A stretch of DNA of 64,000 nucleotides, taken from the IMG/VR virus record IMGVR_UViG_3300020385_000005, positions 64,001 to 128,000 of that record; one strand, written 5' to 3'. The position numbers and the translations under genes are program-made. The notes under the pieces are model-generated. The model searched no databases, was not told where the DNA came from, and worked only from the letters and a program-made list of their open reading frames with translations. Shown one piece after another: positions 4,544-64,000 of this stretch (position 1 is the first letter of the stretch; each line of letters starts with the position of its first letter). This stretch comes from a virus.

Positions 4544-4546
4544 AAT

Positions 4547-46873: not shown

Positions 46874-47986
46874 TTATGTTTTTAACATATGTGGAGTGCT
46901 CTCATGAGATGCACTGTTTGAAATTTGAAGAAATTTTACATTTATAGGAGACAATTGGCTTACAGAAGATAAGCCTAAATAAGAAATAGCAGATGCTATA
47001 GAAGCATTAAAATTTAAAATAAAATCAGCAGTAGTGTAGCTTGGATGTTGCAAGGGACCTTGCACTCCTTCTACATGTAAAGGAAGTTTTCGAGAATATG
47101 TTTTCTGAAATTCTTTCGAAGCTTGCCCTCTGTAATACTTATAAAGGTATTTGTTTTGGAACAAGTAACCAAATGAAATAATATTTAAAAACTTTAAAAG
47201 TTTAGATTGTTTCCAGCCATGACTTTCGATAGCTTTACTGAATAAATTGCCTATCATTACTGCATCTGCGCCTGCAGCTAAATATTTTATTGCATCTCCG
47301 GTACTTCTAATACCTCCATCAGCGATTATAGTGACTTTATCATTCAAGTTATAAGAAAAGAAGCCTGACCAAACATCGTAAACTGCTGATAAATTAGGAA
47401 CGCCACAACCTGTAACAATCCTAGTAGAACAGGCAGAGCCTGGGCCAATACCCACTCTTATATGAGTGCAACCAGCTTCATGGACATTTAAAGCTGATTG
47501 AAAGGTAGCTACAGTGCCGGACATTAAAGCTTTACACCAGGATGCATTAGCATACTTATTATAAAGAGGATAGGTATCTATCATGTCGCCGTGAGCGACA
47601 TCTACAGATATGTTTAAAGAAACTTTAGACTTATGATTTTCAACCCATTCTTTTAAGAATTGGAATGTTTCATTATTGGCTCCTACAGAAAACCAATAAT
47701 TTTTATGTGCGTGATATTTTTCTAAAGACTGAATGAGTTCTTTTTCTGAAAGATATCTACAAAAAACAGTAGCTTGGTTTAAAGGTAGCAAAGCGTCGCA
47801 TAGATTGGTCCCAGTTACGGTATCCATAGGACTGCTATAGATATAAGTGCTACGCACATCGGCATTAGAGCGGCTTCTTAATAGCCCGGTTGCAGGCTCT
47901 AAAAGTACATCATCGGTAGATAACTTTACATTTGTTCGAAGAACGGTTTCATTATGAGAGAGAAAATCAGCTTGTTTATCGTTCAT
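46874..47986 (-). CDS. IMP dehydrogenase / GMP reductase-like enzyme
   Basis: 370 residues forming a single TIM-barrel enzyme without CBS domains, so in length closer to GMP reductase than to full IMP dehydrogenase. Key motifs are LSTDDVLLEP near the start, GIGPGSACSTR with the catalytic Cys186, TGCGVPNLSAV, ADGGIRSTGDAIKYLAAGADAV (phosphate binding, 222-243), YYRGQAS (residues 284-290) and EGVQGP. These act on purine nucleotides at the IMP-GMP step with NAD(P). The TxR of the Cys loop is S-T-R. Whether it oxidises IMP or reduces GMP cannot be told from motifs. Its ATG overlaps the Cas4-like gene stop (ATGA). No intein is present in it. Unusual in a phage. Confidence 0.8.
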   Translation of the reverse strand: MNDKQADFLSHNETVLRTNVKLSTDDVLLEPATGLLRSRSNADVRSTYIYSSPMDTVTGTNLCDALLPLNQATVFCRYLSEKELIQSLEKYHAHKNYWFSVGANNETFQFLKEWVENHKSKVSLNISVDVAHGDMIDTYPLYNKYANASWCKALMSGTVATFQSALNVHEAGCTHIRVGIGPGSACSTRIVTGCGVPNLSAVYDVWSGFFSYNLNDKVTIIADGGIRSTGDAIKYLAAGADAVMIGNLFSKAIESHGWKQSKLLKFLNIISFGYLFQNKYLYKYYRGQASKEFQKTYSRKLPLHVEGVQGPLQHPSYTTADFILNFNASIASAISYLGLSSVSQLSPINVKFLQISNSASHESTPHMLKT

Positions 47987-49308: not shown

Positions 49309-50376
49309 TTAAATTACACCTTTTTTGGTGGGTAAATGAGAACCTAAATAAATAGGATGGGAATCGTTAAAATTAGTATTGCCGTTAGCATCTTGGTAGA
49401 TAACAGCATAACCATTCATAGCATTTTTAAATCTTAAATCTGCTCTGAACTGGTAGGGGAGTTTATGCGCCATAGCGCCTTGTTCGATGAGCAGTTTTCC
49501 TGAAACTACTCCCTTATAAACCTTGTGGGTGTGGCCGACAACTATAGAATCAAAATCAGTTTGATCCATTCTGTGTGCAAAATGGTCAAGTAACTTAACT
49601 ACAGTTGCTCCAGGGTAACGGCTGGCAAAACCACTTGGGTGTGTAAAGATTGTTTGACCTATCCTAACGTACCAAGAGTCGGCTTTTTGATAATGAACGT
49701 TTTCAAATTCATGTACTTTTTCTAAATCTCCAAACGCATTAAGTCTTTCACCATTAGCAATTCTTGAAAGAAGATCTGGGCGATAAACTTTCTCTATATC
49801 TGAAGATATGCCACTCATTTTAAGAGCTCGAGTAGTTCTGTAATCATGATTTCCTGAAACAAGAACGACCATAGGGAAGTTATCTGAAAGGTATTTGACT
49901 AAATCAAAAGCAGCTCGATATTCTTTTATTGCAGCAACGTTTTTGCTTTTACTAAAAGTACTAAACATATAGGCGTCAAGTATATCACCATTCAAAACAA
50001 TAACATCTGCATCGTGGTGTTGAGCAAGAGCTATTTTCATATCTTCCCAAAGAAAAAATGGTATGTGAAGATCACTAAAAGAAACAATTTTCCTTTCTTT
50101 ACTGGTCGTAAGGCCTAAGTCTAGATGTTCACTTTCAGATCTAAATTCCTTTGCAGCATCAATGATTGTTGCCCAAGCGTGATCATATTCAGGTACTGCG
50201 GCTTCAGTAATATTTTCACGAGCAACTTTAGTTCTTACAGCATGAAAAGTTCTTTTAACTGGAAAACCCGGAGTTCCATTGTCATGTTTCAAACAAATTA
50301 ATTCAGCAATTTCTTTAAAAGTTTTTTCGCCAGTAAAAAGTTGGAGTAGGTATTCTTCTTCAGGAGTCCATCTCAT
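49309..50376 (-). CDS. Metallophosphoesterase with N-terminal Myb-like DNA-binding segment
   Basis: 355 residues from the ATG at 50376 (gagga about six bases upstream; the ATG at 50388 has no site). The calcineurin-like core is complete: SDLH (D102, H104), LNGDILD (D131), SGNHD (N176, H177), and GHTH near residue 290. Residues 1-60 look like a Myb/SANT-type helix-turn-helix: MRWTPEEEYLLQLF, KEIAELI, then RTFHAVRTKVARENI. Such a fused domain would target the phosphatase or nuclease to DNA. It overlaps the dnaE C-terminal gene by 17 bases. It could be a phosphatase, a phosphodiesterase or a nuclease; the substrate is unknown. Confidence 0.8.
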   Translation of the reverse strand: MRWTPEEEYLLQLFTGEKTFKEIAELICLKHDNGTPGFPVKRTFHAVRTKVARENITEAAVPEYDHAWATIIDAAKEFRSESEHLDLGLTTSKERKIVSFSDLHIPFFLWEDMKIALAQHHDADVIVLNGDILDAYMFSTFSKSKNVAAIKEYRAAFDLVKYLSDNFPMVVLVSGNHDYRTTRALKMSGISSDIEKVYRPDLLSRIANGERLNAFGDLEKVHEFENVHYQKADSWYVRIGQTIFTHPSGFASRYPGATVVKLLDHFAHRMDQTDFDSIVVGHTHKVYKGVVSGKLLIEQGAMAHKLPYQFRADLRFKNAMNGYAVIYQDANGNTNFNDSHPIYLGSHLPTKKGVI

Positions 50377-51622
50377 AATCGTCCTCATATAAATGTATGG
50401 AATTTAAAATTAATTTTATATCAGGTTCTATTCTTTCTACTTTAACTTTGCAACAAACAATATCGGTCTCTTTAAGCTCAAGCTTTGAAACTTTTGGCCA
50501 CAACTGTGGGAAAACAACAATCTCCGCACTACTGGTCTTATCATTGATTTCAATGAAAGCCATTTGTTTGCCTTTGCGAGTTACAATAGTCTTTATAGAC
50601 AGGATAACACCTGCGACATTAGCATATTCAGATTCAGTTAGGGAAGATAATTTATCCCTACGTATATCAATTAAATCTAAAGGGTGGCCGCCAATATAAC
50701 ATCCAATGTAATTGGCTTGATCTAGAATTTCTTTCATACCTAGTTCTACAAATGAATTTTTAAGTAGTTCAGGAAATTCAGGTTTTTCTTTTTCCTTTAA
50801 GGATACTTTTTTCTTTAGCTCTTGATCTTCAATTGGTTGAAGTTCTTCAGACATAAGGTGAAAGTTATCCATATCGTTCTCTTTTATTTTATCTTTATCA
50901 ATTCTATTTTGGATCTTTTTGATTTCTTTTCTAAGAAAATTACGACGCTCAATTAGCGGAATCACTCTTCCGTTATACGCATTTCGTTCAATAACGTCTA
51001 ATTGTCTCTGCTTGTATGCTTCGACGTCTCTTATATAAGCATATATAAGTGGGCACTTTTCAAGTAAATCGGCTCTATCATAACCTAATTTATCAAAAGC
51101 ACCAGCTTTAACTAAGGCTTCAAAGGTTTTTGTGTTTACTTTCTGCAAGTTCACTCTAGAAACAAAGTCTTTGACAGATTGGAAAGGAGTTTTTTGACGA
51201 GCTTTAATTATCATACGAGCTGCAGTTCTACCAACATCTCGAATTGCATTTAGTCCAAAAAAAATCTCGCCATTAGCAATTGTAAATTCAAAACTTGATT
51301 GATTAACATAAGGCGGGTTCACAATTACACTAAACTTTTTTGCTTCTGCAATGTATTCTGGAGCTTTAAATGCCCAGCTTTTAGGTTGCAAAGTTTTACT
51401 TCTAGTAGACATGAGAGCTGTAAAGAATTCTACAGGGTAGTGTGTTTTCATATATGCACTTACATAAGTGAGTATAGAGTAACTAACACTATGTGCTTTA
51501 TTAAAACAGTTAGAAGCGATTGCGCCATTTTCTAGAACAAAGTTATGGTTACCTTCTAAAGAAGCCACACCTATATCGTATACCTCTTGTTCTCCGAGAT
51601 ATTCTTTCGAAATTATTTTCAT
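50360..51622 (-). CDS. dnaE: DNA polymerase III alpha, C-terminal piece with C-terminal split intein
   Basis: 420 residues. The first 38 are a C-terminal split intein and the rest, starting at C39, is the C-terminal part of DnaE: CFNKAHSVSYSILTYVSAY, the helix-hairpin-helix region (GLNAIRDVGRTAARMI, FVSRVNLQKVNTKTFEALVKAGAF, residues about 120-190), a charged helical linker (residues 220-290), and an OB domain (ANVAGVILSIKTIVTRKGKQ, then FIEINDKTSSAEIVVFP). After trans-splicing, this 382-residue extein would be joined to the 443-residue extein of the gene at 59306. A hairpin terminator lies just upstream, so its own transcription may be weak or come from a promoter overlapping the hairpin. 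The start has aaggaaa upstream. Confidence 0.9.
   Translation of the reverse strand: MKIISKEYLGEQEVYDIGVASLEGNHNFVLENGAIASNCFNKAHSVSYSILTYVSAYMKTHYPVEFFTALMSTRSKTLQPKSWAFKAPEYIAEAKKFSVIVNPPYVNQSSFEFTIANGEIFFGLNAIRDVGRTAARMIIKARQKTPFQSVKDFVSRVNLQKVNTKTFEALVKAGAFDKLGYDRADLLEKCPLIYAYIRDVEAYKQRQLDVIERNAYNGRVIPLIERRNFLRKEIKKIQNRIDKDKIKENDMDNFHLMSEELQPIEDQELKKKVSLKEKEKPEFPELLKNSFVELGMKEILDQANYIGCYIGGHPLDLIDIRRDKLSSLTESEYANVAGVILSIKTIVTRKGKQMAFIEINDKTSSAEIVVFPQLWPKVSKLELKETDIVCCKVKVERIEPDIKLILNSIHLYEDDYEMDS
51509..51622 (-). other. C-terminal split intein (IntC), residues 1-38
   Basis: MKIISKEYLGEQEVYDIGV is almost the same as the start of cyanobacterial DnaE IntC proteins such as Npu and Ssp. Block F (VYDIGV, then NHNFVLENG; D16, H26) and block G (AIASN, N38) precede C39, the +1 Cys of CFN. 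A three-residue insertion lies in the block F loop. The penultimate Ser rather than His is also seen in DnaE split inteins. Splicing residues all look intact. Confidence 0.9.
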
Positions 51623-51637
51623 TAGTTTCCTTTATAT

Positions 51638-51677
51638 ATAAAAAAAGGGCAGCCCGCATTGTAGCGGACCACCCTTT
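51638..51677 (-). terminator. Rho-independent terminator after the fibre cassette
   Basis: On the - strand, a 14 bp stem (AAAGGGTGGTCCGC / GCGGGCTGCCCTTT, with three G-T pairs), loop TACAAT, then T-rich sequence. The arms are 51644-51657 and 51664-51677. It sits between the stop of the repeat-rich fibre gene and the start of the dnaE C-terminal gene, so it would end the fibre transcript. Confidence 0.75.
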
Positions 51678-51713
51678 AAAAACAAGAGATTACTTTATGT
51701 GTTAAACTATATA

Positions 51714-54700
51714 TTAAATTGTATACCAACCACTTGAGCCTGCAGAAATGAGAGTTCTCGATGCACCAGGAGCCAATGTGATCTTTTTATTGGTTGCATC
51801 TGATACGCCATCAATATTACTAGTAGAGTCTATTACCAGATCATTTGAAGTAGTACTGATATTCTTGACCTTAACCTCTCTATTGACCATTTGACTATCA
51901 TTGGCGGAAGGAAGAACAAATTCGATACCAGTATTACTTGGATTGATTAACATGATATGGTCATCAGCAAAAGATTCGTCATCATCAAAATTATAACTAC
52001 CATTTTGGGTAGATATGTTTTTGACTTTTACACGTCTTTGGATAGCGTCAGTAGTCAATTTGCCTTGTATATCTACATTACCACCAGTATCATCTGAAGA
52101 GTCAGATCTAATAGTAAGGCTATCGCCGTAATCGATGTAAATGTTACCATTTGTTGCATCAAGTGTTAAATCTGAAGATGAAGCTATTTTGGCTCCATTA
52201 AGAGTAAGATTATCTATAACTGCTTCATCAGCAGTAAGACCAGTTGATTCAAGCTTATTGTCATCGTCAACTTTAAGAGTAGTAGCAGTTACAGTACCTA
52301 AGTTACCAATATCTTGATTAGTACCAGCAACAAGAGCTTTATCAGTTGCAGCAGTACCGTTGGTAATGCCATCAATTTTTGCAGCATCTGTAGCATCAAT
52401 TTCTACACTATCAATAGTAATTTTATCTACAGCCAAATCAGCAAAAGTAACATTATCAGTAGTAGCTACAGCTTGAGCGATAGCAATACTGCCATTAGTG
52501 ATAGTTACGCCAGTTCCACCAGCAATATGGGCTCTTACTTCAGCAGCACTTGGACCAGTATAAGTGAATACACCAGTAGAGGCATCATAAGCAAGACTTC
52601 CATCTCCGCCTGCGTCAGTAGCTGATACGGCTCCTCGTGAGTATGTCTTTAATACTGAAGCTTCCAACCGACTATTGGTTCCATCAGCTCCATCGTCCAC
52701 AATGAAGAGGTCATCATCCATTAAAGTGGTGCAATTATTAGATTCGCTATTGATTTCAAGAGCACTAAGAGCAACCTTACCTGCGGTAGAGATTTGACTT
52801 AGTTTACTGTCAGCGATAGAACCAGTTAACTGTGTATTACTAACACCTCCAGAAGCTATTTGAACCATACCATCAGTAAGAGTAAAGTCGCTTGAATGGA
52901 AAGATGCTACACCTTTACTTGAGCCAGTAGCGTCATCAGCATTTATTGTAATTGTATTGTCTGTGACAGCAGTACTAATACTGGCGCCGCCAGCAAACGT
53001 AAATGATTCACCGAGAGCAAGAGTATCAGCACTGCCAGAATCAGCGACTAAACCAACAGTACTATTTTGCAACTTAGCATTAGTAATAGAGCCTGCAAGT
53101 TGTGTATTAGTGATGGTTCCAGTAAGACTTGTGGTAGGGTAATTGGTTGCATTTGTAAGGTCAAATTCTGGCGTGGCATCAGAAGCACCAAGCGCCAATG
53201 AAACACCACCAAAACTTACAGTACTGTTGGAGAGTTTATCATTACCAATACTTCCGTTTAACATAGTATTGGTAATACCACTATCTTTAACTGAGATAGT
53301 AAGCCCTGTACTACCATTATAAGTTGTACCAGAACTAAGCTTAATACTACTGTTATCAACAGTAAGATTGCTTAGATTGGCTCCTAAAGAAATTCCAGAA
53401 ATAGTACTATTCGCAAGTTTTGCATTGGCAATACTGCCAGCTAGTTGCGCATTTGTAACCGTACCTGTCAATGAGGTGGTAGGTAAGTCTGTAGCATCAG
53501 CAAGATTAAAAGCAGGTGTAGCGTCAGAAGCACCCAAGGCGAGTTGAACACCACCGAAAGAAATAGTGCTGTTAGCTAACTTAGCGTTCTCAATGGAACC
53601 TGCTAACATTGCATTTGTAATGCCAGCGGCTTTAACTTGTAACTCGTTAGAAGTAGAATCAACTTCTATTGAGCTATCGTCGACTTTAGCATTAACAGTA
53701 ACAGAGCTTCCTAAAGATACAGAGCCACCAGCTTGCAACCCACTTCCAGCAGTAATTGTTACTGCTGAATTTAACAACTTAGCATTCGCAATGCTGCCAG
53801 CAAGCATTGCATTTGTAACGCCTTCAGCCTTTACTCTTAAAATATCAGAGTCAGTTTCAATAGAAGAGTCATCAACATTAACAGAAAGTACTTGACTTGT
53901 TAGTGCAAGACCATCGCCTGCTAAAGCAGCTTTAAGTCTCAGACCAGTACTGTCTTCAATAGCAGAATGTGTTGAATTTAATTGAATAGCTGAGCCAGAA
54001 ACTTTATTTGAAGTAGCAATTGTATCAAGTTTTGAATCTTCAATAGAACCAGCTAATTGCGCGTTAGTAACTGTGCCAATTAAACTAGAAGTTGGGTAGT
54101 TAGTTGCGTCACTTAAATCAAACGCAGGGGTTGCGTCAGATTGACCAAGATCTAAAGATACGCCACCAAAGCTTACACTATCGTTAGCAAGTGAAACGTT
54201 AGCAATTTGACCTGCGGCAAAAGTAATCGTACCAGCTGAAACATCGAGAGTCTTACCGCTACCAACAGTGATATTAGAAGTTGCAATTGTAGAACCATCG
54301 ATTGCACCACTATTTATATCTACATTGGTCATTGCTTGGTTAGCAAAATCGATAGCACCAGCTGCTTCAAAAGCACCAATCTTGGTAGCTGTCAAAGTGT
54401 CAGTTGCAAAAGTGAGATTTGCATTATCTGAAAGCACACCATCAGTACCCGCAAACACAACTCGAGTGTTTGTTAAATCATCTGCAGTTAGAGTTTTGGC
54501 TCTTAAATCAAAACCACCGACATCTACATCTGAAACAGCACCTTGCAGAATAGCAAGCTTTTGTGCTGCTGAAGTAGAAAAAGTACCTGCAGAAACGTCC
54601 AAGGTTTTACCAGCACCAACAGTAATATTTGATGTTGCAATAGTAGTACCATCAATAGTGCCGCCATTGATATCAACAGAAGAGAAGGAGGGAGCGCCAC

Positions 54701-55355
54701 CACTTACGGTAATATCATTGCCAGCGATAGTAACGTTACCAGCAAGCAAGGTGCCAGCAGTAATAGTGTTGATGCCTGTTATATCTTTATTAGTATCAAG
54801 CACAACTGCTTTACTAGCGGAAGCAGTACCAGCAGTAACGCCATCGAGTACATTCAATTCGGCTGCATCTGCACCTACTACAACTCCAGCGATCTTAAGG
54901 TCGCCAGCAGCTGGAAGGTTTAGTTTAGCTTGCAAGGTGCCGTCAACGCTGCCACTTCCACTAAAATCGACAGTAGTGTCTCCGGGTGCGTCTTGGTTGC
55001 CTTCAAAAAGCTTCCAGGTTGCATCATCAGCGTCACGAACAAGACCGTGGTATTTAGGCGTACCGTCAGTGTCTTCTACACCATATAAGCCAATATCTGC
55101 ACTGGAGGTACCAGCACCAGTATTAATTTTAGCAAGCTTAACCATCGGTTCTTCAACGCTAAGCTTGTCTACGGTAACTTCTGTAGCATTTCCAGTAACG
55201 GTCAAGTTGCCTTCAATTACAACATTGCCTTTAGCAGTCATATTGACGGTTTGGACGTCTTTCCATGGTACTGTTGAGGTACCTAAGGTATCTTGTCCGC
55301 CTGCTGAGAAGTCCCCCCCATTAGGGGCGTCTTTTTGTCTTAAGCTAGAAGCCAT
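51714..55355 (-). CDS. Repeat-rich tail fibre / virion structural protein
   Basis: 1213 residues. The N-terminus (MASSLRQKDAPNGG, then GNVVIEGNLTVTGNATEV) is of a kind found in marine phage fibre proteins. The body is repeats of the forms LAGSIxNAKL, FGGVxLALGASDATP, TSLTGTVTNAQ and IATSNITVGAGKTLDVSAGT, predicted to form a long beta-helical or trimeric shaft. The C-terminus (residues about 1080-1213) is different and may be the tip. It is the last gene of the four-gene fibre cassette, ended by a terminator. A long + strand frame lies opposite but is a shadow of the repeats. Fibre role is well supported by repeats and neighbours. Confidence 0.75.
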   Translation of the reverse strand: MASSLRQKDAPNGGDFSAGGQDTLGTSTVPWKDVQTVNMTAKGNVVIEGNLTVTGNATEVTVDKLSVEEPMVKLAKINTGAGTSSADIGLYGVEDTDGTPKYHGLVRDADDATWKLFEGNQDAPGDTTVDFSGSGSVDGTLQAKLNLPAAGDLKIAGVVVGADAAELNVLDGVTAGTASASKAVVLDTNKDITGINTITAGTLLAGNVTIAGNDITVSGGAPSFSSVDINGGTIDGTTIATSNITVGAGKTLDVSAGTFSTSAAQKLAILQGAVSDVDVGGFDLRAKTLTADDLTNTRVVFAGTDGVLSDNANLTFATDTLTATKIGAFEAAGAIDFANQAMTNVDINSGAIDGSTIATSNITVGSGKTLDVSAGTITFAAGQIANVSLANDSVSFGGVSLDLGQSDATPAFDLSDATNYPTSSLIGTVTNAQLAGSIEDSKLDTIATSNKVSGSAIQLNSTHSAIEDSTGLRLKAALAGDGLALTSQVLSVNVDDSSIETDSDILRVKAEGVTNAMLAGSIANAKLLNSAVTITAGSGLQAGGSVSLGSSVTVNAKVDDSSIEVDSTSNELQVKAAGITNAMLAGSIENAKLANSTISFGGVQLALGASDATPAFNLADATDLPTTSLTGTVTNAQLAGSIANAKLANSTISGISLGANLSNLTVDNSSIKLSSGTTYNGSTGLTISVKDSGITNTMLNGSIGNDKLSNSTVSFGGVSLALGASDATPEFDLTNATNYPTTSLTGTITNTQLAGSITNAKLQNSTVGLVADSGSADTLALGESFTFAGGASISTAVTDNTITINADDATGSSKGVASFHSSDFTLTDGMVQIASGGVSNTQLTGSIADSKLSQISTAGKVALSALEINSESNNCTTLMDDDLFIVDDGADGTNSRLEASVLKTYSRGAVSATDAGGDGSLAYDASTGVFTYTGPSAAEVRAHIAGGTGVTITNGSIAIAQAVATTDNVTFADLAVDKITIDSVEIDATDAAKIDGITNGTAATDKALVAGTNQDIGNLGTVTATTLKVDDDNKLESTGLTADEAVIDNLTLNGAKIASSSDLTLDATNGNIYIDYGDSLTIRSDSSDDTGGNVDIQGKLTTDAIQRRVKVKNISTQNGSYNFDDDESFADDHIMLINPSNTGIEFVLPSANDSQMVNREVKVKNISTTSNDLVIDSTSNIDGVSDATNKKITLAPGASRTLISAGSSGWYTI
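53050..54310 (-). repeat. Protein repeats in the fibre shaft
   Basis: A unit of about 50-60 residues built on FGGVxLxLGxSDATPxF, a DATN/DATD turn, PTxSLxGTVTNAQLAGSI occurs at about 53050-53215, 53395-53570 and 54000-54180. A second unit with IATSNITVGxGKTLDVSAGT occurs near 54230-54300 and again near 54590-54650. Copies are similar in DNA as well, so recombination between them could change fibre length. Confidence 0.7.
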
Positions 55356-55380
55356 AATTTAATCTCCTGTGTAAAATTTT

Positions 55381-58300
55381 TTAGTTTCGATATCCTGTAA
55401 AGATTGAATCACCATTAGTGGTATCTACTTCGAAATGGGCGTCTTCGTGTGTCTTGGCTTTGCAGCCGTAAAAAATGATGTCACCTGCGCCACTATTGGT
55501 TATAATATCGGCCATGTCAATTTCGAACGGACCGAGATGTGAGCTAATTTTTATGGTTGAAGGCATGATGACAGAATAAACACTAGAACCATGATCTTGC
55601 TGCTCAAATAGTCCACCGTCTCTTACTTCTAGGAGGTCAATATTGTCAGCATTGTTTTTGGCTTGTGTATCAAGTTGAGTGACTGCAGTTTTTAAATTGG
55701 TTCCATCAGCATAGTTAGCATCAGCTATAACAGTGTAAGTGCCATCACTATTAAGTCCAATTGCGGTTTCATGCGTGTCGGATAATGCTTGAAGAGCTGT
55801 GATATCAGTATCATTCGAACTGATGTTGCTCGCATTGGAGGATATACCAGAAGTATTCGTGCTGATTTCGCCATCGTTACTTGTAATCTGACTCTGTAGA
55901 CTCGTAAGCGTTGAAGCGTGAGAAGACTGAGTAGAGGTAAGACTGTTAATACTCGTTGTGTGAGATCCGATACTGCTAGTATTGGAGGCTACATCTGTTT
56001 CAAGATTATCAATGTCGCTCTCAGCAGCAGTCATCCTGGTACCGAGATTTGATATATCAGTATCGTTTGAACTGATGTTGCTTTCAGCAGAACCTATACG
56101 AGTCGTAAGACCTGCAATGTCAGTGTCATTACTTTGAATGGCGGCCAAGTTAGAGGTTATATCAGAGTCATTCGTACTAATGTTACTAGCATTAGTGCTG
56201 ATTGAACTGGCGTTGGTACTGATACTCGATGTATTAGTGGCCACATCAGACTCTAGGTCATCTATATCACCTTCAGCCGCTGTCATCCTGGTACCAAGAC
56301 CTGAGATGTCAGTATCGTTACTCTGGATTGCCGCTAAGTTGCTAGTGATGTCTCCATCATTTGCTGTAATTTGGGTTTGCAATCCAGTAATTGCAGAGGA
56401 GGTGCCTAATTCAGAAGCAACATTAGTTGCTAAAGTTGAATCTGAAGAAACAGAAGAGATGAAACCAGCGTTTGTGCTTAATGAACTAGCAATAACGCTG
56501 TTAACTGCATCTGCTCCAGCAGCTCCAGTTGGGCCTTGAATACCTTGAGGACCAGTTTGACCCTGGATGCCTTGAATTCCGTTAACGCCATTGGCGCCAG
56601 CAGGTCCGGTGTCACCAGTATCGCCTTTAAGTCCAGTTGCGCCTTGTGAACCTTGAGGTCCAGTGTCACCTTGGGGGCCTTGAATTCCCTGAGTTCCATT
56701 CGAACCAGCAGTTCCTGTAACTCCTGCGGGACCAGTAGCGCCCGTTTGACCCTTAGGGCCTGTAGCGCCGGTTTCTCCTTGAACTCCAGTTGCGCCTGTA
56801 GTCCCTTGAGCTCCAGTAACTCCTTGAGTTCCTTGGGTTCCCTGAAGTCCGGTTGGACCTCTAGCGCCTTCGATACCTTGACTACCAGTCGTTCCTTGAA
56901 CCCCGGTAGGGCCAGTAATGCCTACAGCGCCAGTCAAACCTGCTGGACCTGTAGCACCCTGAAGACCAGTTGCACCTGTTTCGCCTTTGACGCCAGCTGT
57001 TCCAGTGACACCAGCGATACCTTGTGGTCCTGTTGCACCTTGAATTCCTGCGGCTCCTGTTTCACCTTTAGCGCCTGTTGTACCAGTTGAGCCCTGGGCA
57101 CCAGTCACCCCTATGGGACCTTGAGCTCCAGTTGCGCCCTGGAGACCAGTAGAGCCTGTATTACCTTTAGCACCAGTCACCCCTTGAATTCCTTGAGAGC
57201 CTGTGGTGCCTTGAGGTCCTACAGCGCCTGTATCGCCTGTATCACCTTTAACACCAGTAAACTGACCGAGATCAGACCAATCATTGCCATCATACATGAC
57301 TATATGTAAATCAAGATTCGTACTTGAAAGAATACTGCCTGCGTTAGCATTTCTTGTATCTGAAGTTACAACAAAGAAATAAACATCAGTGCTTGAAGCA
57401 TTAGAGTTATTTTGGACAGCCAAAACTTTTGCATCGCTTAAGACACCAGAATCATCAACGCTAAAGGCTTGACCTCTAGGTCCTTGCGAACCAGCGATAC
57501 CGTTTGTTCCTGCAGTACCTTGAGGGCCTGTAATACCTTGCGCACCTTGAGGGCCTGTAGCGCCTGTTGGCCCAGCCACTCCTTCAGCACCTTGAGGGCC
57601 TGTAACGCCGCGAGAACCTACAGAGCCTTCAACTCCAGTTGCGCCGGTAGCGCCTTGAAGACCTGTGGTTCCTGGAGTACCTGGGACACCTTGCGGTCCG
57701 GTAGGACCGGTAGCACCATCTGAACCTTGAAGCCCAGTAAGGCCAATGACGCCTTGCGGACCAGTGACGCCTTGAGCTCCTGTTGCTCCATTGGTTCCTG
57801 GATATCCAGTTGCACCACGAAGACCTGTTAGTCCAGTAATTCCTTGGGGCCCTGTTGGGCCTGCAGGGCCGGAAACACCAGGAACTCCAGTTGTTCCTGT
57901 GGGACCTTGAAAGCCTTGAGGGCCGGTTGCTCCGGCAGGACCAGTTGTTCCAGCGACTCCAGTCGGACCTTGAGGACCTTGGTCACCAGCTTGGCCTGTG
58001 GCACCAGTGGGTCCAACTTGACCCTGAACGCCGTCAGGTCCTGTAACGCCAGGGATTCCTTGTGGACCTGTCGGTCCGACTAATCCATCAAGACCGGGGT
58101 TCCCTGAAGGGCCTGTTGCGCCTCTAAGACCAGTTACTCCAGCAATACCTTGATCACCAGTCTGGCCTTTTACTCCGGTTACCCCAGCTACACCAGTAGG
58201 TCCAGCTGCCCCTTGGGGGCCTTCAGGTCCTGTAACACCAATAATACCTTGCGGACCGGTTTGTCCCGCTGCTCCTGTCGCTCCAACAGGGCCTGCTGCG

Positions 58301-58449
58301 CCTGTGGGACCTTGTGGCCCTGTGGGACCTTGACCGCCAGTACCTCCAGTGGAACCACCAATTTGTTCAATTACTTTATTTGTAATTTCGTTTATAAGAG
58401 AGTCGTCGATAGCGCCTCTACGTAAGTCGGTACGTCTTTTTGTAGCCAT
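55381..58449 (-). CDS. Collagen-like fibre protein with coiled-coil segment
   Basis: 1022 residues. Gly-X-Y triplets ([18 protein letters not shown] and the like) run at about residues 37-326 and 396-650, with a globular, non-collagen insert between ([13 protein letters not shown] to [13 protein letters not shown]). Residues about 680-870 are short heptad-like repeats rich in Asn, Ser, Thr and Ile ([19 protein letters not shown]), which should form a trimeric coiled coil. A C-terminal domain of about 120 residues (ending FTGYRN) may be the tip. Phage collagen-like proteins form trimeric shafts in fibres. The many + strand frames opposite are mirror images of the triplets, not genes. Confidence 0.85.
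56500..57262 (-). repeat. Collagen-like Gly-X-Y repeat block 2
   Basis: About 84 Gly-X-Y triplets (residues about 396-650), starting [13 protein letters not shown] and ending [12 protein letters not shown]. It is separated from block 1 by a globular insert of about 70 residues. Confidence 0.82.
57470..58341 (-). repeat. Collagen-like Gly-X-Y repeat block 1
   Basis: About 97 Gly-X-Y triplets (residues about 37-326), with X often Pro, Ala, Val or Gln and Y often Thr or Gln. The block is richer in G and C than its surroundings because of the Gly/Pro codons. It ends at GPRGQAFSV. Confidence 0.85.
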
Positions 58450-58461
58450 TTTAAATTCCTT

Positions 58462-58884
58462 TTAAGCTAGAGTGTAACGAGCAAGTAGTACGGGAGTGTC
58501 AATGTCACTATGCCGCCTAGGCAAATCTTCGAGTCGCCACATGAGCTCGACTTTAGTACTATCGATAACTTTGTAATCGCCCTTAGAATTAGGATCTGCT
58601 GGATTGAGATTTGGAGACAAAGTTAATCCATCAAGGATAATCATAAGCGTATTTACTCGAGCAGGAGATGGTAGAGTAATATCTTTTAAAGCTGTTTGAA
58701 GCTCAATCAGTTCTTGACCTGTTGGAATGCTACTGTCTGAATTCAGAAGCGTTCCATCCCAAGCTGGGAATTGATCACTTAAATCATAAGTATGCGTTCT
58801 TTGATTATCATCGTAAACATTAACTGTATTAACTTCTATCTGAGAATTGTCTATATTAACTAGACCTGGATACACGACGGCCAT
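58462..58884 (-). CDS. Small structural protein of the fibre cassette
   Basis: 140 residues, beta-rich, no membrane segment (VVYPGLVNIDNSQIEVN at the start; VELMWRLEDLPRRHSDIDTP near the end). Its ATG has taggaga upstream. It lies between the collagen-like gene and the 123-residue gene, each a few to 37 bases away. Not recognised; an adaptor or capping role in fibre assembly is likely from context. Confidence 0.6.
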   Translation of the reverse strand: MAVVYPGLVNIDNSQIEVNTVNVYDDNQRTHTYDLSDQFPAWDGTLLNSDSSIPTGQELIELQTALKDITLPSPARVNTLMIILDGLTLSPNLNPADPNSKGDYKVIDSTKVELMWRLEDLPRRHSDIDTPVLLARYTLA

Positions 58885-58921
58885 GAGTTCTCTCCTATTG
58901 ATTATTGGTATTTATAAAAAA

Positions 58922-59293
58922 TTATTGATTCCTACTAGTATACAGTGCATGAATCTCTTTTGTCGATAAGTCTGAAACGTTTACAATAGTAAGTTCATTG
59001 CCATCGGCACTTATAAAATATCCAGGGCCAGAATCCTCAAGAGAGGATAATTTTGATAAAGATGTTCCATCAACAAATATCATTGTATTTGTAAGAAAAT
59101 CTACATTGATAGGATGATCTAAAGAAACTGTTGTATTATCTGCAAATTTATTAGGATCTATAGAATAATAAGCAGGAAGTGCTTTGATAATTTCTTCATG
59201 AGTGCTCGTTTTGTTAACATTCAAAGTGTCTATTACGATATCGCTATCTTTTATTAAAGTAGAATGAGAAGAATTGTTTGAATGTGTCGCCAT
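58922..59293 (-). CDS. Small structural protein of the fibre cassette
   Basis: 123 residues, Ser/Thr/Asn-rich at the N-terminus (THSNNSSHSTLIKDSDIVID) and beta-rich afterwards (NTMIFVDGTSLSKLSSLED). It is the first gene of the fibre cassette and starts just 12 bases after the dnaE middle gene ends. The stretch up to its ATG has aaagga. Not recognised; it may pair with the 140-residue neighbour. Confidence 0.58.
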   Translation of the reverse strand: MATHSNNSSHSTLIKDSDIVIDTLNVNKTSTHEEIIKALPAYYSIDPNKFADNTTVSLDHPINVDFLTNTMIFVDGTSLSKLSSLEDSGPGYFISADGNELTIVNVSDLSTKEIHALYTSRNQ

Positions 59294-59305
59294 AAAAAAA
59301 TCCTT

Positions 59306-60925
59306 TTAGCTTTTTAATTTTAAGTTTCGTTGATATATAGCATCAATTTCAAGCATTTTGTTATTTAAAGTTAAAAAATTATGATCGATAGTGCAATCAA
59401 CGTAAGAGTGGTTATCGAAGGTGTATCTAAAAACTTTTTTGACCCCTTGAGTGTGCCACTGAGTTACTGTTTGAAAATGATATTTATCACTTTTTGTATT
59501 GTACGATAGCACGTTAACAGGTTTTTTTTCTGCAACAATATCTTTTATCGCAAAAAGACCTTGATCTGTTTGAATTTGAGTGTTTGCAGCTAAACAATAA
59601 TCAGCAAAGCCAACAAGATTGTCCCACAGCTCTTTACTGTAAGTTTCAGAAAGTCCTCCAATTGAAATGCACCCATCAACAAATTGTTCTTTATAGGTGT
59701 TTAAAACATCTACTTTTTTCTTGCCCATAGCACGTCTAATATCGTCAGCTTCTTTAGGAGTGAAGCCTGCTATCTTAGAGCAAATATCCATTACTTGCTC
59801 TTGATAAACCAAAGTCCAATAAGAACTTTTTAAAATTTCTGCAATATTTTCTGGAAGTTCATCAGGTGGGCAATCATTATATTTATTTATAATGTACTGC
59901 TTATCAAGTCCTGCTTGAAGTGGGCCAGGACGATTCAATGCAGAAATAGCAGATAAATCTTCTATAGATTTTGGTTTAATTTTTATAATTAACTCTTTAG
60001 CCATACCCGATGTTTCCATTTGGAAGACACCAGTAAGCAATCCTTTTTCTAAAGTATTGTAAGTTTGATTATCAAAATCAGGAATTGCATATGGATTTAT
60101 TTCAATGTCATGATTATCTTTTATTAAAGAAACGCATTCTTTTATAATAGAAAGAGTATCTATTCCTAAGAAATCAAATTTAATCAAACCTAATTCTTCA
60201 CACTCATCTTTATCAAATTGAGTTATGCGGTCTGCTTTTTTATTTTTCCATAAAGGTACAATATCATCTATGTCGGAATCACTAATGATTATACCAGCAG
60301 CATGAATCCCAAAGTTAGCCACCATACCTTCTATTCTATCTGCGAATTCTAAAAACTCTAGATAGCGAGGATCTTCTTGAACTTCAGGGTTCATTTCTAG
60401 AACTTCATCTAATGTTGCTTCTTTTCCAAATTTAGGTGGAGGAATTTTTTTAAGTAATTCACTTAAATCTTCTGATTCTTTTTCAGTTATACGATAATAA
60501 GAGCGCGCAAGACTTTTAGGTTTAAAAGTTCCGTGCGTAATGATATTAGCGACTTTGTCTTCACCCCAGTAGTCTATACACCACTGGATAGCAGTTTCAC
60601 GATCCAAAGCATCGTGATCGATATCTATGTCCGGAGGAGAGCCATTAATAGTATTGGATCTGGCTTTTTCAAAATCAAACTGATTAGTAAGGCCAGTTAT
60701 ATAAAGTATAATACTGTTGTGCGGGTTGTCTTCGAAGAAGGGAAGTTCTGGTGGGTTTTTATTAAAGTTAGCAATAGCCCAGAGACAATCGTTAATCTTT
60801 TGAAGATCATCTAGGGCTGACATTTTAATTTCAAACTCCAGATAATCTGGATCAACTTGAATATATCTTGTATCTATTATATAAGGGTCTATACCCTCTA
60901 GTATTTCTTTTCTTTTTTGATCCAT
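59306..60925 (-). CDS. dnaE: DNA polymerase III alpha, middle piece with N-terminal split intein
   Basis: 539 residues. Residues 1-95 have no clear match to DnaE. The palm active site follows: SPPDIDIDHD with D99 and D101, and KFDFLGIDTL with D251, the three metal-binding Asp residues. Then come GIHAAGIIISD, ALNRPGPLQAG, LVYQEQVMDICSKIAGF, EADDIRRAMGKKK and ELWDNLVGFADY, all DnaE motifs. The last 96 residues (C444 to the stop) are an N-terminal split intein. The extein ends in ADY. It lies 7.7 kb upstream of the matching C-terminal piece, with the fibre genes between, and about 1 kb downstream of the N-terminal piece. The start has a weak site (gagg, 11-14 bases ahead). Confidence 0.9.
   Translation of the reverse strand: MDQKRKEILEGIDPYIIDTRYIQVDPDYLEFEIKMSALDDLQKINDCLWAIANFNKNPPELPFFEDNPHNSIILYITGLTNQFDFEKARSNTINGSPPDIDIDHDALDRETAIQWCIDYWGEDKVANIITHGTFKPKSLARSYYRITEKESEDLSELLKKIPPPKFGKEATLDEVLEMNPEVQEDPRYLEFLEFADRIEGMVANFGIHAAGIIISDSDIDDIVPLWKNKKADRITQFDKDECEELGLIKFDFLGIDTLSIIKECVSLIKDNHDIEINPYAIPDFDNQTYNTLEKGLLTGVFQMETSGMAKELIIKIKPKSIEDLSAISALNRPGPLQAGLDKQYIINKYNDCPPDELPENIAEILKSSYWTLVYQEQVMDICSKIAGFTPKEADDIRRAMGKKKVDVLNTYKEQFVDGCISIGGLSETYSKELWDNLVGFADYCLAANTQIQTDQGLFAIKDIVAEKKPVNVLSYNTKSDKYHFQTVTQWHTQGVKKVFRYTFDNHSYVDCTIDHNFLTLNNKMLEIDAIYQRNLKLKS
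59309..59596 (-). other. N-terminal split intein (IntN), last 96 residues of the dnaE middle piece
   Basis: Starts at C444 with CLAANTQIQTDQGLFAIKDI, like the CLSYETEIL start of cyanobacterial DnaE IntN. Later blocks are VLSYNTKSDKY, TVTQWHTQGVKKVFRY and block B (TIDHNFLT, with T69 and H72 of the intein), ending MLEIDAIYQRNLKLKS and a stop. It has 96 residues, against about 102 for Npu and 123 for Ssp. No homing endonuclease is present. Confidence 0.92.
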
Positions 60926-60958: not shown

Positions 60959-61363
60959 TTACCTAGTGTTCGTAGGTGTAAGAACGGGTGTCAAGTAAGA
61001 GTGATAAACTTCTAAGAAAGTGTTATCGTCAGATATAGCTATGCTACACGTTTCTCGGCCCCATATATAAAACCCCCAATGGTTTGTAACTAGCTGGTTT
61101 CGAAATTGAAGCTGCTTTCCAAACCAATCTGAAACAATCCAGAATTGCATTGGAGATCTATAACTAGGGTCAGCTGAAGGGTTGTTGTAAAAATCTGAAG
61201 AATACAGCTCTTCAGAAATCATAAATAAATCTGCATACCAAGAGTATTCAAGAAGATTCCAGTCACGTTGCGATTTGTCTAGTAGATCTCTAATTAGTTG
61301 CCCACAGGGGGCTAATATATGTTTGCTTTTAAAATCTGCAATCTTTAAAGATGTGTCATTCAT
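60959..61363 (-). CDS. Hypothetical protein
   Basis: 134 residues, rich in Trp, Phe and Tyr (WNLLEYSWYADLFMISEELY, QFWIVSDWFGKQL, HWGFYIWGRETC), with no signal peptide. Not recognised. It is the last of the small genes between the first and second dnaE pieces and overlaps the gene upstream by eight bases. A stop followed by 33 bases precedes the dnaE middle gene. Confidence 0.55.
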   Translation of the reverse strand: MNDTSLKIADFKSKHILAPCGQLIRDLLDKSQRDWNLLEYSWYADLFMISEELYSSDFYNNPSADPSYRSPMQFWIVSDWFGKQLQFRNQLVTNHWGFYIWGRETCSIAISDDNTFLEVYHSYLTPVLTPTNTR

Positions 61364-61646
61364 TATCCGGCACCATTAATTCCAGATTCGAACACATGGG
61401 TTTTCCTGGATTTAATCTAACATCCATATAAAAAGCAGCTAAGTTGACATGTCTGCTAGTAGTTGCAGATATAAAACTATTATTAGCAACTGTATAATCG
61501 TATAGTATTTTTTGGCCATCAGAAGTTGTAGTTCCAATAAGGAGCTTATAGCTATAAAGATTATGGCCATCAGTCCAATAGTTGTTGGTGTAACTTTTAG
61601 CGGGAGCGTTGTTTCGCCAAAACTTTGGAACAAGATCAAGCTTCAT
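61356..61646 (-). CDS. Hypothetical phage protein
   Basis: 96 residues. The sequence has a pattern I recall in short unnamed phage proteins: a WTDGHNLYSYKLLIG strand pair, LYDYTVANNSFIS, then TTSRHVNLA. It may be a small beta-rich protein of early genes. No function can be given. Its start overlaps the end of the 34-residue membrane gene by 11 bases. Confidence 0.5.
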   Translation of the reverse strand: MKLDLVPKFWRNNAPAKSYTNNYWTDGHNLYSYKLLIGTTTSDGQKILYDYTVANNSFISATTSRHVNLAAFYMDVRLNPGKPMCSNLELMVPDNE

Positions 61647-61740
61647 GTTGTTTCCTAAATATCTTTTTAAATATTGCTAATAATGGTGCAAGAAGCAAAA
61701 GCTCTAATCCGCAAGCTTTAAAATAAGTGGAACAAATCAT
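61636..61740 (-). CDS. Very small membrane protein (34 residues)
   Basis: An ATG-started frame of 34 residues with one membrane helix (LELLLLAPLLAIF, about residues 12-24) and a basic end (KKIFRKQHEA). The start overlaps the previous stop (ATGA) and the stop lies inside the next gene's start, the normal packing of this operon. That fit is the main support. It could be a small membrane regulator; function unknown. Confidence 0.5.
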   Translation of the reverse strand: MICSTYFKACGLELLLLAPLLAIFKKIFRKQHEA

Positions 61741-61934
61741 TTAGCAGTTTTCCAATCAGTGTAATTGGTAAAATCGCCTTTAACAATTCGAACATCTTGT
61801 CGGTTAGTAAGACGTCTGTACTCTCTTGCATCAGAACGAGTTGCATGCAAAGTTCTGTTTTTTACAGTAATAAGTGTGCCGTTATTATCCATAATAGCAT
61901 AAAGGGTAGTAGCACATGTATTTAATACATTCAT
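61737..61934 (-). CDS. Small hypothetical protein
   Basis: 65 residues, basic (RTLHATRSDAREYRRLTNRQ), with a beta-rich start (LYAIMDNNGTLITVKNR). The start has aaggaaaa about six bases before it and lies 18 bases after the end of the dnaE N-terminal piece. It resembles small nucleic-acid-binding phage proteins in size and charge only; not recognised. Confidence 0.5.
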   Translation of the reverse strand: MNVLNTCATTLYAIMDNNGTLITVKNRTLHATRSDAREYRRLTNRQDVRIVKGDFTNYTDWKTAK

Positions 61935-61952: not shown

Positions 61953-63281
61953 TCAAAACGGAATTGAATATTTGTCGGCTTTATAAGCCATCTCTTTATC
62001 AAAAATAAGCGGTGTGGCACCACGACCTTCATTCAAAAATCTCTCAAAGATTAATCCGTATTTTATAGGATCCACTTCGGTTATTCCAAGCGCATACGCT
62101 ATAAGAGATCCAGCAGCAGACCCTCTTCCAGGACCATGTAAGACGCCTCGTTCTCTAGCGCCGTTCATAAATTGTGCGACGATAAGTAAGTAGTCAGCAA
62201 AGCCCATTTTTTTAATGACGTTTAATTCATAATTCAAACGGTCCCTATATTCTTGTGTTGGCATTTGACCAAACCTATTAAACAATCCATGTTGACTTTC
62301 AATCTCTAGAAAAGAGATATCAGTATATCCTTCTGGAATGTCTTTATATTTAGGGTACCTATTCATTCTGTCCATAAAATATGAATCGGAGTCAATCATG
62401 TCAGCAAGCGTTACTGTGTTAGAGATAACATCATAAGGCATACCTTGAGCAGATGCTTCATTCCACATCCAGTCATGATCTGCCATATGAACTTTTATTT
62501 CACCGAAAGTAAATCTTTTAGGATTCGATAAAGTAGTTTTGGTTTGCATACATAAAGCAGCTTCATGATGCATTTTATCGTGTTCGTAGGCATAATGACA
62601 ATCATTCGTCACGATCATAGGGAAATTATTTTTTAAAGCAATTTGTTGCAAAACTTTATTAACAGCTTGCTGTTCTTCTTCTCTATGAAGTTGCAATTCG
62701 ACAATAAAGCGATCCTTAAAGATTGATCTGTGATGATGGATTAATTTTTCTGCTTGGGTTATCTCATTGTTAAGAATCAATTGAGAAGCGCGACTACCTA
62801 AGCAAGTAGTCGTAGCTATGATTCCTTCAGAATGATCAGCTAATAGAGCGTCATCTATACGAGGTTTTCTATAGAAACCAGTAGTATAAGCTTTAGAAGA
62901 AAGTTTAATTAAATTGTGCAGTCCAATGTTATTTTGAGCTAAAAGTATTAAGTGGTAATAGCTTTTACCCATTTCATCTGGTTCTTTTACTGTACGGTCA
63001 TTTACAGAGTAATAAGCTTCCATACCAATAATAGGTTTGATATTAGCTTTGTTACATTCTTTATAAAATCTGTAGCATCCAGAAATGTTACCATGATCAG
63101 TCATTGCAACAGCAGGTTGATTCATAGACTTTACGAAATTTGGAAGTCTAGAGACCTTGTTGATACCGTCAAGTAGAGAATATTCAGTATGTACGTGCAA
63201 ATGTACATACTTAGATTCATTATAATTAGAAGTTACATTTTCGTGGTGCGAATGTTTGTGAGTAGAGCAATCATGTGTCAT
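61953..63281 (-). CDS. dnaE: DNA polymerase III alpha, N-terminal piece (PHP domain and start of palm)
   Basis: 442 residues from the ATG at 63281, overlapping the recA stop by 11 bases; a longer frame runs back inside recA but is a shadow. A His-rich start (THKHSHHEN) leads into the PHP domain: YVHLHVHTEYSLLDG (H27, H29), AVAMTDHGNISG, IGMEAYY, TTTCLGS and TNDCHYA. The polymerase part begins YELNVIKKMGFADYLLIVAQF, then GVLHGPGRGSAAGSLIAYAL and GLIFERFLNEGRG. It stops 22 residues later, before the PDxDxD active site, which lies in the gene at 59306. No intein block is seen at this end. The PHP metal residues look present, so proofreading-type activity is possible. Confidence 0.88.
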   Translation of the reverse strand: MTHDCSTHKHSHHENVTSNYNESKYVHLHVHTEYSLLDGINKVSRLPNFVKSMNQPAVAMTDHGNISGCYRFYKECNKANIKPIIGMEAYYSVNDRTVKEPDEMGKSYYHLILLAQNNIGLHNLIKLSSKAYTTGFYRKPRIDDALLADHSEGIIATTTCLGSRASQLILNNEITQAEKLIHHHRSIFKDRFIVELQLHREEEQQAVNKVLQQIALKNNFPMIVTNDCHYAYEHDKMHHEAALCMQTKTTLSNPKRFTFGEIKVHMADHDWMWNEASAQGMPYDVISNTVTLADMIDSDSYFMDRMNRYPKYKDIPEGYTDISFLEIESQHGLFNRFGQMPTQEYRDRLNYELNVIKKMGFADYLLIVAQFMNGARERGVLHGPGRGSAAGSLIAYALGITEVDPIKYGLIFERFLNEGRGATPLIFDKEMAYKADKYSIPF

Positions 63282-64000
63282 CTTCTTTAGTGTCTTCTTG
63301 GTCTGGGTTGAGAATAAAATCATACAGAAGTTGGTAATCTTCAGGGTTTTCGATAAAGTGACTTTTAGCGCCAAGTTTACCGCCAGTACAAAGAGACTCT
63401 TCCTCACCGGTAGCTGGATTAATCCATTTTACAGAAGAACCTGCGAAACGCATTATGCCAGTATCTTTAGCATAACCAATAATATCTAAATATGGATCAG
63501 TGCCTTTTCCACAGATGAAATCAAACTCTGCGGTTTTATTTAAAGCAGGAGCGACTTTGTTTTTAACTACTTTAACTTTCATAGTTATTGCACCATCTTG
63601 ATCTTTAGATGGCTTGCTACTTACACGAAGTCTAACTGAACAGTAAAAAGGTATTGCATTTCCACCACTAGTCGTTTCTGGATTACCATACATAACGCCA
63701 ATTTTCATACGCACTTGGTTGATAAATAAATATAAACATTCATTATCTACGCTTATTTTTGAAATAGAACGCAATGCTTTAGATAGAAGTCTTGGTAAAT
63801 CGCCAACGCCGGTTTCATTCATTAATCTTTTAGTATCTTTTTCTGACTGAGCAGCATCGATACTATCGAATACAATTACACCAACTTTGCCAGTTTTTCC
63901 TAAATCCTGACACAACTGAAGTGCTTCTTCAGCAGTGTCAGGGTAACAAAAGATCATTTTTTCGGGTTGGAGTCCCATAGATTGGACAAGGTCCAGACCA
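63271..64000 (-). CDS. recA: RecA recombinase, 5' end outside the window
   Basis: The frame is open to the window edge: translation continues above the first ATG in view with GLDLVQSMGLQPEKMIF, which fits the RecA middle domain. Visible parts: CYPDTAEEALQLCQ, VGVIVFDSIDAA (Walker B), then the L1/L2 region with NQVRMKIGVMYGNPET and SGGNAIPFYCSVRLRV. The end is acidic (DQEDTKEDDT), as in bacterial RecA. It catalyses strand exchange in recombination and repair, and would work with the Cas4-like and resolvase-like nucleases in this operon. The Walker A part is beyond the edge. Confidence 0.93.
   Translation of the reverse strand, partial: GLDLVQSMGLQPEKMIFCYPDTAEEALQLCQDLGKTGKVGVIVFDSIDAAQSEKDTKRLMNETGVGDLPRLLSKALRSISKISVDNECLYLFINQVRMKIGVMYGNPETTSGGNAIPFYCSVRLRVSSKPSKDQDGAITMKVKVVKNKVAPALNKTAEFDFICGKGTDPYLDIIGYAKDTGIMRFAGSSVKWINPATGEEESLCTGGKLGAKSHFIENPEDYQLLYDFILNPDQEDTKEDDT

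Follow-up and report, generated by a model that had tools for sequence, protein, structure and literature searches.

How does a virus make a working replicative DNA polymerase when the gene for it is broken in two places? The question is raised by IMG/VR virus record IMGVR_UViG_3300020385_000005 (161,781 bases), which comes from a large, uncultured virus whose own DnaE-type replicative polymerase is encoded by three separate genes. These genes lie in positions 64,001-128,000 of the record, a stretch of 64,000 nucleotides referred to here as the window; coordinates are window positions unless a relative is named. The explanation that we consider best, and hold to be likely with good confidence, is that the products of the second and third genes are trans-spliced by a split intein of mobile ancestry, that the first joins them without a peptide bond, and that a tail-fibre-type cassette lies between the intein halves in the former place of an endonuclease. 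The features of the locus are as follows.

61953..63407, minus strand: dnaE piece 1, with the PHP domain and the nucleotide-binding part of the palm (Pfam PHP, 1.9e-48; DNA_pol3_alpha profile positions 3-102)
60959..61934, minus strand: three small open reading frames (ORFs) of no known family that separate pieces 1 and 2 (61737-61934, 61356-61646 and 60959-61363)
59306..60925, minus strand: dnaE piece 2, catalytic palm and fingers followed by the N-intein (ORF list, Pfam, NCBIfam)
60641..60925, minus strand: first 95 residues of piece 2 (its head), which carry a diverged duplicate of a palm segment and no intein signature
59597..60640, minus strand: N-extein, with the PPDIDID catalytic aspartates and the fingers, up to FADY (Pfam DNA_pol3_alpha 99-260 and DNA_pol3_finger)
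59309..59596, minus strand: N-terminal split intein of 96 residues, with C1 at 59594-59596 and block B T-I-D-H at 59381-59392 (TIGR01445, above cut-off)
51714..59293, minus strand: putative tail-fibre/adhesin-type cassette separating the intein halves (Pfam Collagen, 1.7e-81; PHROG tail fibre; cassettes in relatives that are homologous or look similar)
51644..51677, minus strand: terminator-like hairpin of 14 pairs followed by a U-run, in the gap between the fibre cassette and the C-half (hairpin search)
51509..51622, minus strand: C-terminal split intein of 38 residues, MKIISKEYLGEQEVYDIGVASLEGNHNFVLENGAIASN, with N38 at 51509-51511 (TIGR01443, above cut-off)
50360..51508, minus strand: dnaE piece 3, the C-extein from C39-FNKAHS, with C39 at 51506-51508 (Pfam HHH_6, 5e-27; tRNA_anti-codon OB, 2.4e-7)

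An initial annotation had described the two intein halves, and both were recovered in the ORF list and by NCBIfam. The intein_Nterm model matches residues 444-519 of the ORF at 59306-60925 (E 1.1e-8), intein_Cterm matches residues 13-39 of the ORF at 50360-51622 (E 7.9e-7), and DNA polymerase III alpha models match both of these ORFs; the Pfam match to the N-half is weak and lies under Pfam's own cut-off. Each intein profile matches exactly one place in the whole record, and these places are the two halves. The N-intein is complete, as had been claimed, and the C-intein matches it: all class 1 intein residues are present (C444, T512-x-x-H515 in block B, N38 preceded by serine, and C39 at the +1 position). 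The halves are encoded by separate genes, and neither is accompanied by an endonuclease. The insertion point lies directly before C-F-N-K in DnaE (ADY/C...SN/CFNK). The junction had been called equal to the cyanobacterial one; it is alike, but reads ADY/CFN here and AEY/CFN there. The calculated length of the spliced chain, 443 + 382 = 825 residues, is correct.

For both halves the Npu and Ssp DnaE inteins are the best solved relatives (PDB; E 5.5e-14 for the N-half, 3.3e-9 for the C-half). When PDB chains were searched with phmmer, 14 DnaE intein chains ranked above the first non-DnaE chain, the next family being DnaX at 1.4e-4, and the intein tree likewise puts the window intein nearest the DnaE inteins. 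When the N-intein of the 198-kb phage L249 was used as a tblastn query against 50,697 deposited phage records, no DnaE intein came up. The similarities to Npu and Ssp place the window intein, as the initial annotation had done, in the DnaE split-intein family of cyanobacteria; it is carried by a phage and occupies the insertion site used there. It shares with the Ssp and Npu inteins (PDB 1zd7, 4qfq) the site before CFNK, C1, block B T-x-x-H, a split into about 96-102 and 36-38 residues, the S/A-N/C end and the distribution over two genes. It differs in that it resides in a phage, is only about 40% identical, has a C-half that is 2-3 residues longer, joins exteins that are not of cyanobacterial descent, is accompanied by a further polymerase piece and has virion-type genes between its halves. 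The quick splicing of the family is reflected in only some of its residues: at the four accelerator positions of fast DnaE inteins (70, 75, 81 and 136 in Npu numbering), the fast-type residue is matched at M81 and S136 and mismatched at K70 and M75, that is, at two of four.

Scans of IMG/VR yielded 19 loci with the C-terminal piece (49-87% identity). Both halves are found in the same order on 13 other contigs (at least 11 distinct sequences; 49-87% identity in the C-terminal piece), and several further contigs carry one half. C444, T512 and H515 are invariant in the seven family members aligned over the N-half, and the S-N/C junction is invariant in those aligned over the C-half. The ratio of nonsynonymous to synonymous substitution rates (dN/dS) is below 1 in both halves (N-half about 0.25-0.45, C-half about 0.05-0.27, where dS was computable; dS is near saturation), and both halves are thus under purifying selection. 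This bears on the possibility that the halves are worn-out relics and that pieces 2 and 3 function together without being spliced, in the way that pieces 1 and 2 have to. The intein does diverge fast inside the window family (42.9% identity compared with 67.4% for the exteins), three members (L011, L194 and L259) are far from the consensus, and the break between pieces 1 and 2 demonstrates that a polymerase made up of separate chains is tolerated in these phages. However, none of the aligned members has lost the catalytic residues, dN/dS stays below 1, and the C-intein is nearly unchanged among close relatives (dN 0.03). We therefore consider relics improbable.

The initial annotation was right about two polymerase pieces, but missed the third gene at 61953-63407 as well as the nature of the genes lying between the halves. 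The Pfam palm domain PF07733 (260 positions) is split between pieces 1 and 2: piece 1 holds the first 102 positions, including the motifs GPGRGSAAGS...ERFLNEGRG, and piece 2 resumes at position 99. Homology begins near residue 67 of piece 1, the true start of which is probably internal, and the piece ends in a short tail (ATPLIFDKEM...IPF) that is conserved in relatives. When compared with the one-piece phage DnaE of L021, the end of piece 1 and the later part of the piece 2 head align to the same stretch. GPGRGSAAGS is retained in piece 1, the tail of which no longer has the catalytic aspartates. In piece 2 PPDIDID is still present, and the segment in front of it is a diverged copy. The layout looks like the result of a duplication followed by complementary loss. 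Codon changes show the piece 2 head to be under coding selection. The distant phages L017, L019 and L249 are broken at this point too. The presence of the three small ORFs at the break varies among relatives.

Neither Pfam nor NCBIfam gave an intein signature in the piece 1 tail or the piece 2 head. A second or atypically split intein at this join was rejected, there being no signature and the head being a diverged palm copy, and an intron was rejected as there was no Rfam match. Jumbo phages are known to have a Pol III alpha that is divided between its nucleotide-binding and metal-binding subdomains (Iyer et al. 2021, PMC7824862), and the break between pieces 1 and 2 is thus a known kind of split. 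Both versions break at this point and lack an intein there. The jumbo-phage enzyme is a minimal one without the other Pol III domains (PMC7824862), whereas the window polymerase keeps PHP, fingers, HHH and OB and has a second break, predicted to be bridged by the intein. Pieces 1 and 2 would work like the jumbo-phage split enzyme, although we do not class them as one. The AlphaFold model of piece 2 is modest (pLDDT 71, pTM 0.37); its predicted fold matches bacterial Pol III alpha and the Npu DnaE intein in the PDB. Owing to low confidence near the head/palm join (residues 87-107), it could not show the docking of piece 1.

The intein halves are 7.7 kb apart in the window. Between them lie two small ORFs (58922-59293 and 58462-58884), a collagen-like tail fibre of 1022 residues (55381-58449; Pfam Collagen 1.7e-81, with many PHROG tail-fibre matches) and a fibre-like protein of 1213 residues (51714-55355). 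Within the collagen-like gene, at 56000-58000, G+C is about 0.49-0.53, compared with about 0.35 in the flanking dnaE genes. Since phage fibre genes are normally late genes, tail fibres within the span of a replication gene are odd. A cassette of tail-fibre/adhesin type was found between the halves in every related contig examined. The cassettes of the relatives differ in content, not in kind: there are fibre-like repeats, a LamG domain in L258, and several small structural-type ORFs in L011, L014 and L188. In a second DnaE lineage, consisting of L249 and L290 (sisters at 100 in the extein tree), genes of structural type again lie between the halves. L290 has just one, a LamG-domain gene separated from the halves by 19 and 11 bases; L249 has one small ORF and a gene for a tail protein that contains a carbohydrate-binding domain. 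The label "adhesin" is tentatively derived from domains and PHROG matches, many of the cassette ORFs having no annotated family.

The hairpin in front of the C-half recurs in L024 but is absent from most relatives, and was thus dismissed as a conserved regulatory device; no regulatory signal conserved across the family was found among the hairpins checked at the locus in the window and its relatives.

Genes of this general design are known from phages. The "fractured genes" of Dassa et al. 2009 (NAR 37:2560) reportedly comprise 26 loci. In phage MIJ3, PolB is broken by a split intein (PMC6892783). As in these cases, a split intein breaks a phage DNA-synthesis gene of the window into two nearby genes with other genes between the halves. 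In contrast to them, the intein is a DnaE allele and the interposed genes are of tail-fibre type. We did not class the locus as a fractured gene because collagen-like and fibre-like genes, and no homing endonuclease gene, lie between the halves. Searches of open-access literature turned up neither a phage DnaE split intein nor a DnaE intein that contains an endonuclease; the fractured-genes study falls outside that scope, and novelty is thus provisional.

Where the intein came from was approached by comparing the history of the intein with that of its exteins. As the initial annotation had anticipated, the window intein groups with the DnaE inteins. The exteins fall outside the cyanobacterial clade: in the extein tree, built by a quick method and rooted at the midpoint, cyanobacteria and the window family form separate groups, both at 100. 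Mean identity between L196, L249 or L290 and cyanobacteria is 56% for the intein and 39-40% for the extein, although inteins are elsewhere the less conserved part (within cyanobacteria, 64% for the intein and 73% for the extein). In these three phages the intein has thus moved apart from dnaE, and the identities indicate an allele shared horizontally with cyanobacteria. In the intein tree, too, L290, L249 and L196 are closer neighbours of the cyanobacteria than the window family is. For the window itself the figures are 40% and 39%. As inteins change faster, even these values still point, but only weakly, to sharing after the exteins had diverged.

Traces of mobility are found in relatives on both sides. 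In L196 and L197, which are identical at the locus, the DnaE N-half runs on into a LAGLIDADG endonuclease, and the ORF of the C-half begins, in another frame, 29 bases before the N-half-endonuclease ORF ends. Four of the 386 cyanobacterial genomes sampled have a LAGLIDADG ORF, homologous to the endonuclease of L196, directly between dnaE-N and dnaE-C:

L307 3017-3796: LAGLIDADG endonuclease ORF, genome G044
L315 3573-4331: LAGLIDADG endonuclease ORF, genome G291
L316 3459-4238: LAGLIDADG endonuclease ORF, genome G341
L317 3238-4017: LAGLIDADG endonuclease ORF, genome G359

The G044 endonuclease is 42% identical to that of L196 (E 1e-67). L196 and the four cyanobacteria have the DnaE intein at the same site as the window, but keep the endonuclease, either fused to the N-half (L196) or as a separate ORF (cyanobacteria). 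This is as expected of a once contiguous mobile intein that was broken up. In a further cyanobacterium, G016, the neighbouring dnaE-N and dnaE-C are separated by an ORF that looks unrelated (L306 2777-3451) and by eye resembles Uma2-type nucleases.

Taken in sequence, pieces 2 and 3 would be translated separately, their intein halves would associate, and trans-splicing at ADY/CFN would give one 825-residue chain, to which piece 1 (PHP and the nucleotide-binding half of the palm) would bind without a peptide bond and which it may complement. The DnaE split-intein family would descend from a mobile LAGLIDADG intein moving between phage and cyanobacterial dnaE. The window lineage would have lost the endonuclease, and the variable tail-fibre cassette would occupy its former place between the halves. 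Several points weigh against this explanation. Trans-splicing of pieces 2 and 3 is itself a prediction from sequence, and the fast divergence of the intein within the family would also fit relaxed constraint. Because the intein is no more similar to cyanobacteria than the extein is, the window's own transfer event is old or blurred. No remnant of an endonuclease was seen between the halves in the window phage family, so that the placing of the cassette in the endonuclease slot is argued from position. Finally, a single clade of all phage inteins was not rejected (approximately unbiased (AU) test, p 0.34 and 0.25; weak rooting); a phage-to-cyanobacterium direction, suggested by the first intein tree, was dropped as not significant on the same values. 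A more far-reaching proposal, that cyanobacteria received their DnaE split intein from large phages, that the endonuclease gap became an insertion site for receptor-binding genes and that the dnaE halves serve as arms for swapping host-range cassettes, is possible but rather doubtful.

The initial annotation had considered that the phage gained its dnaE from, or shared it with, cyanobacteria or another carrier. Capture of a ready-made split dnaE from a cyanobacterial host would account for the shared intein family, insertion site and split point. It is very unlikely nonetheless: the extein tree parts the groups, so it is the intein and not the gene that is shared; the additional split between pieces 1 and 2 is absent from the cyanobacterial loci examined; and psbA, a photosystem gene looked for as a host clue, occurs in none of the 13 related records. 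An assembly or sequencing artefact, i.e. an intact dnaE broken by a stop codon, a frameshift or a mis-join, had been named at the outset as the case that would overturn the split, and viral metagenome assemblies can be chimeric. Here, however, a separate start and splicing motif belong to each half, the halves are 7.7 kb apart with conserved genes between them, and the 13 separately named contigs repeat the order at 49-87% identity, which leaves an artefact hardly credible. Equally far-fetched is joining at the RNA level by split or trans-spliced introns: group I introns do occur in the family, in dnaE of L012 (Rfam) and, as judged from its conserved non-coding part, probably in recA of L009 and L012, but Rfam matches nothing in the window, and both intein halves lie in open frames that are under selection and have starts of their own.

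Further inserts were noted in these genes. The group I intron of L012 lies in dnaE piece 2 (10897-11219; Rfam, 66.8 bits), and dnaE of L010 is interrupted at a different site by a shorter non-coding insert. The recA gene is broken after VMYGN by the likely group I intron in L009 (6680-7680) and L012 (6600-6960), and the L009 insert contains an endonuclease-like ORF. The window's own RecA, considered as a further broken gene, is cut only by the window edge and is complete in the record. L017 and L019 (about 9820-13890) carry a long cis intein at FNK/SHA, three residues past the cyanobacterial site. The L249 record has five N-intein matches; its dnaE (2887-5739 and 9215-11317) contains a further cis intein (YGVM/CLPAG...HN/CFQEQ), and an apparently HNH-type cis intein lies only four residues past the split DnaE site. 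In L267 (5570-7318), a C-intein half precedes SAGGSLLAYVL, apparently part of a split or broken intein at the GPGRG/SAGGS site of another phage DnaE. Outside the polymerase locus, an IMP dehydrogenase/GMP reductase-like gene (window 46874-47986) is kept in most of the phage family.

DnaE split inteins of the Npu/Ssp type are standard tools, and the literature searched contained no account of their origin. The loci described here offer apparent intermediates, namely an intein with endonuclease in phage, an endonuclease between N- and C-halves in a few cyanobacteria, and halves without an endonuclease in phages and cyanobacteria alike, and thus make the origin of the DnaE split intein testable. 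The phage set also adds about 15 diverged DnaE inteins on which engineering could draw. Polymerase halves that flank tail-fibre-type genes in two separate DnaE lineages represent an unusual genome design; if the cassette-swap proposal is true, the split intein would keep the polymerase whole while fibre cassettes are exchanged.
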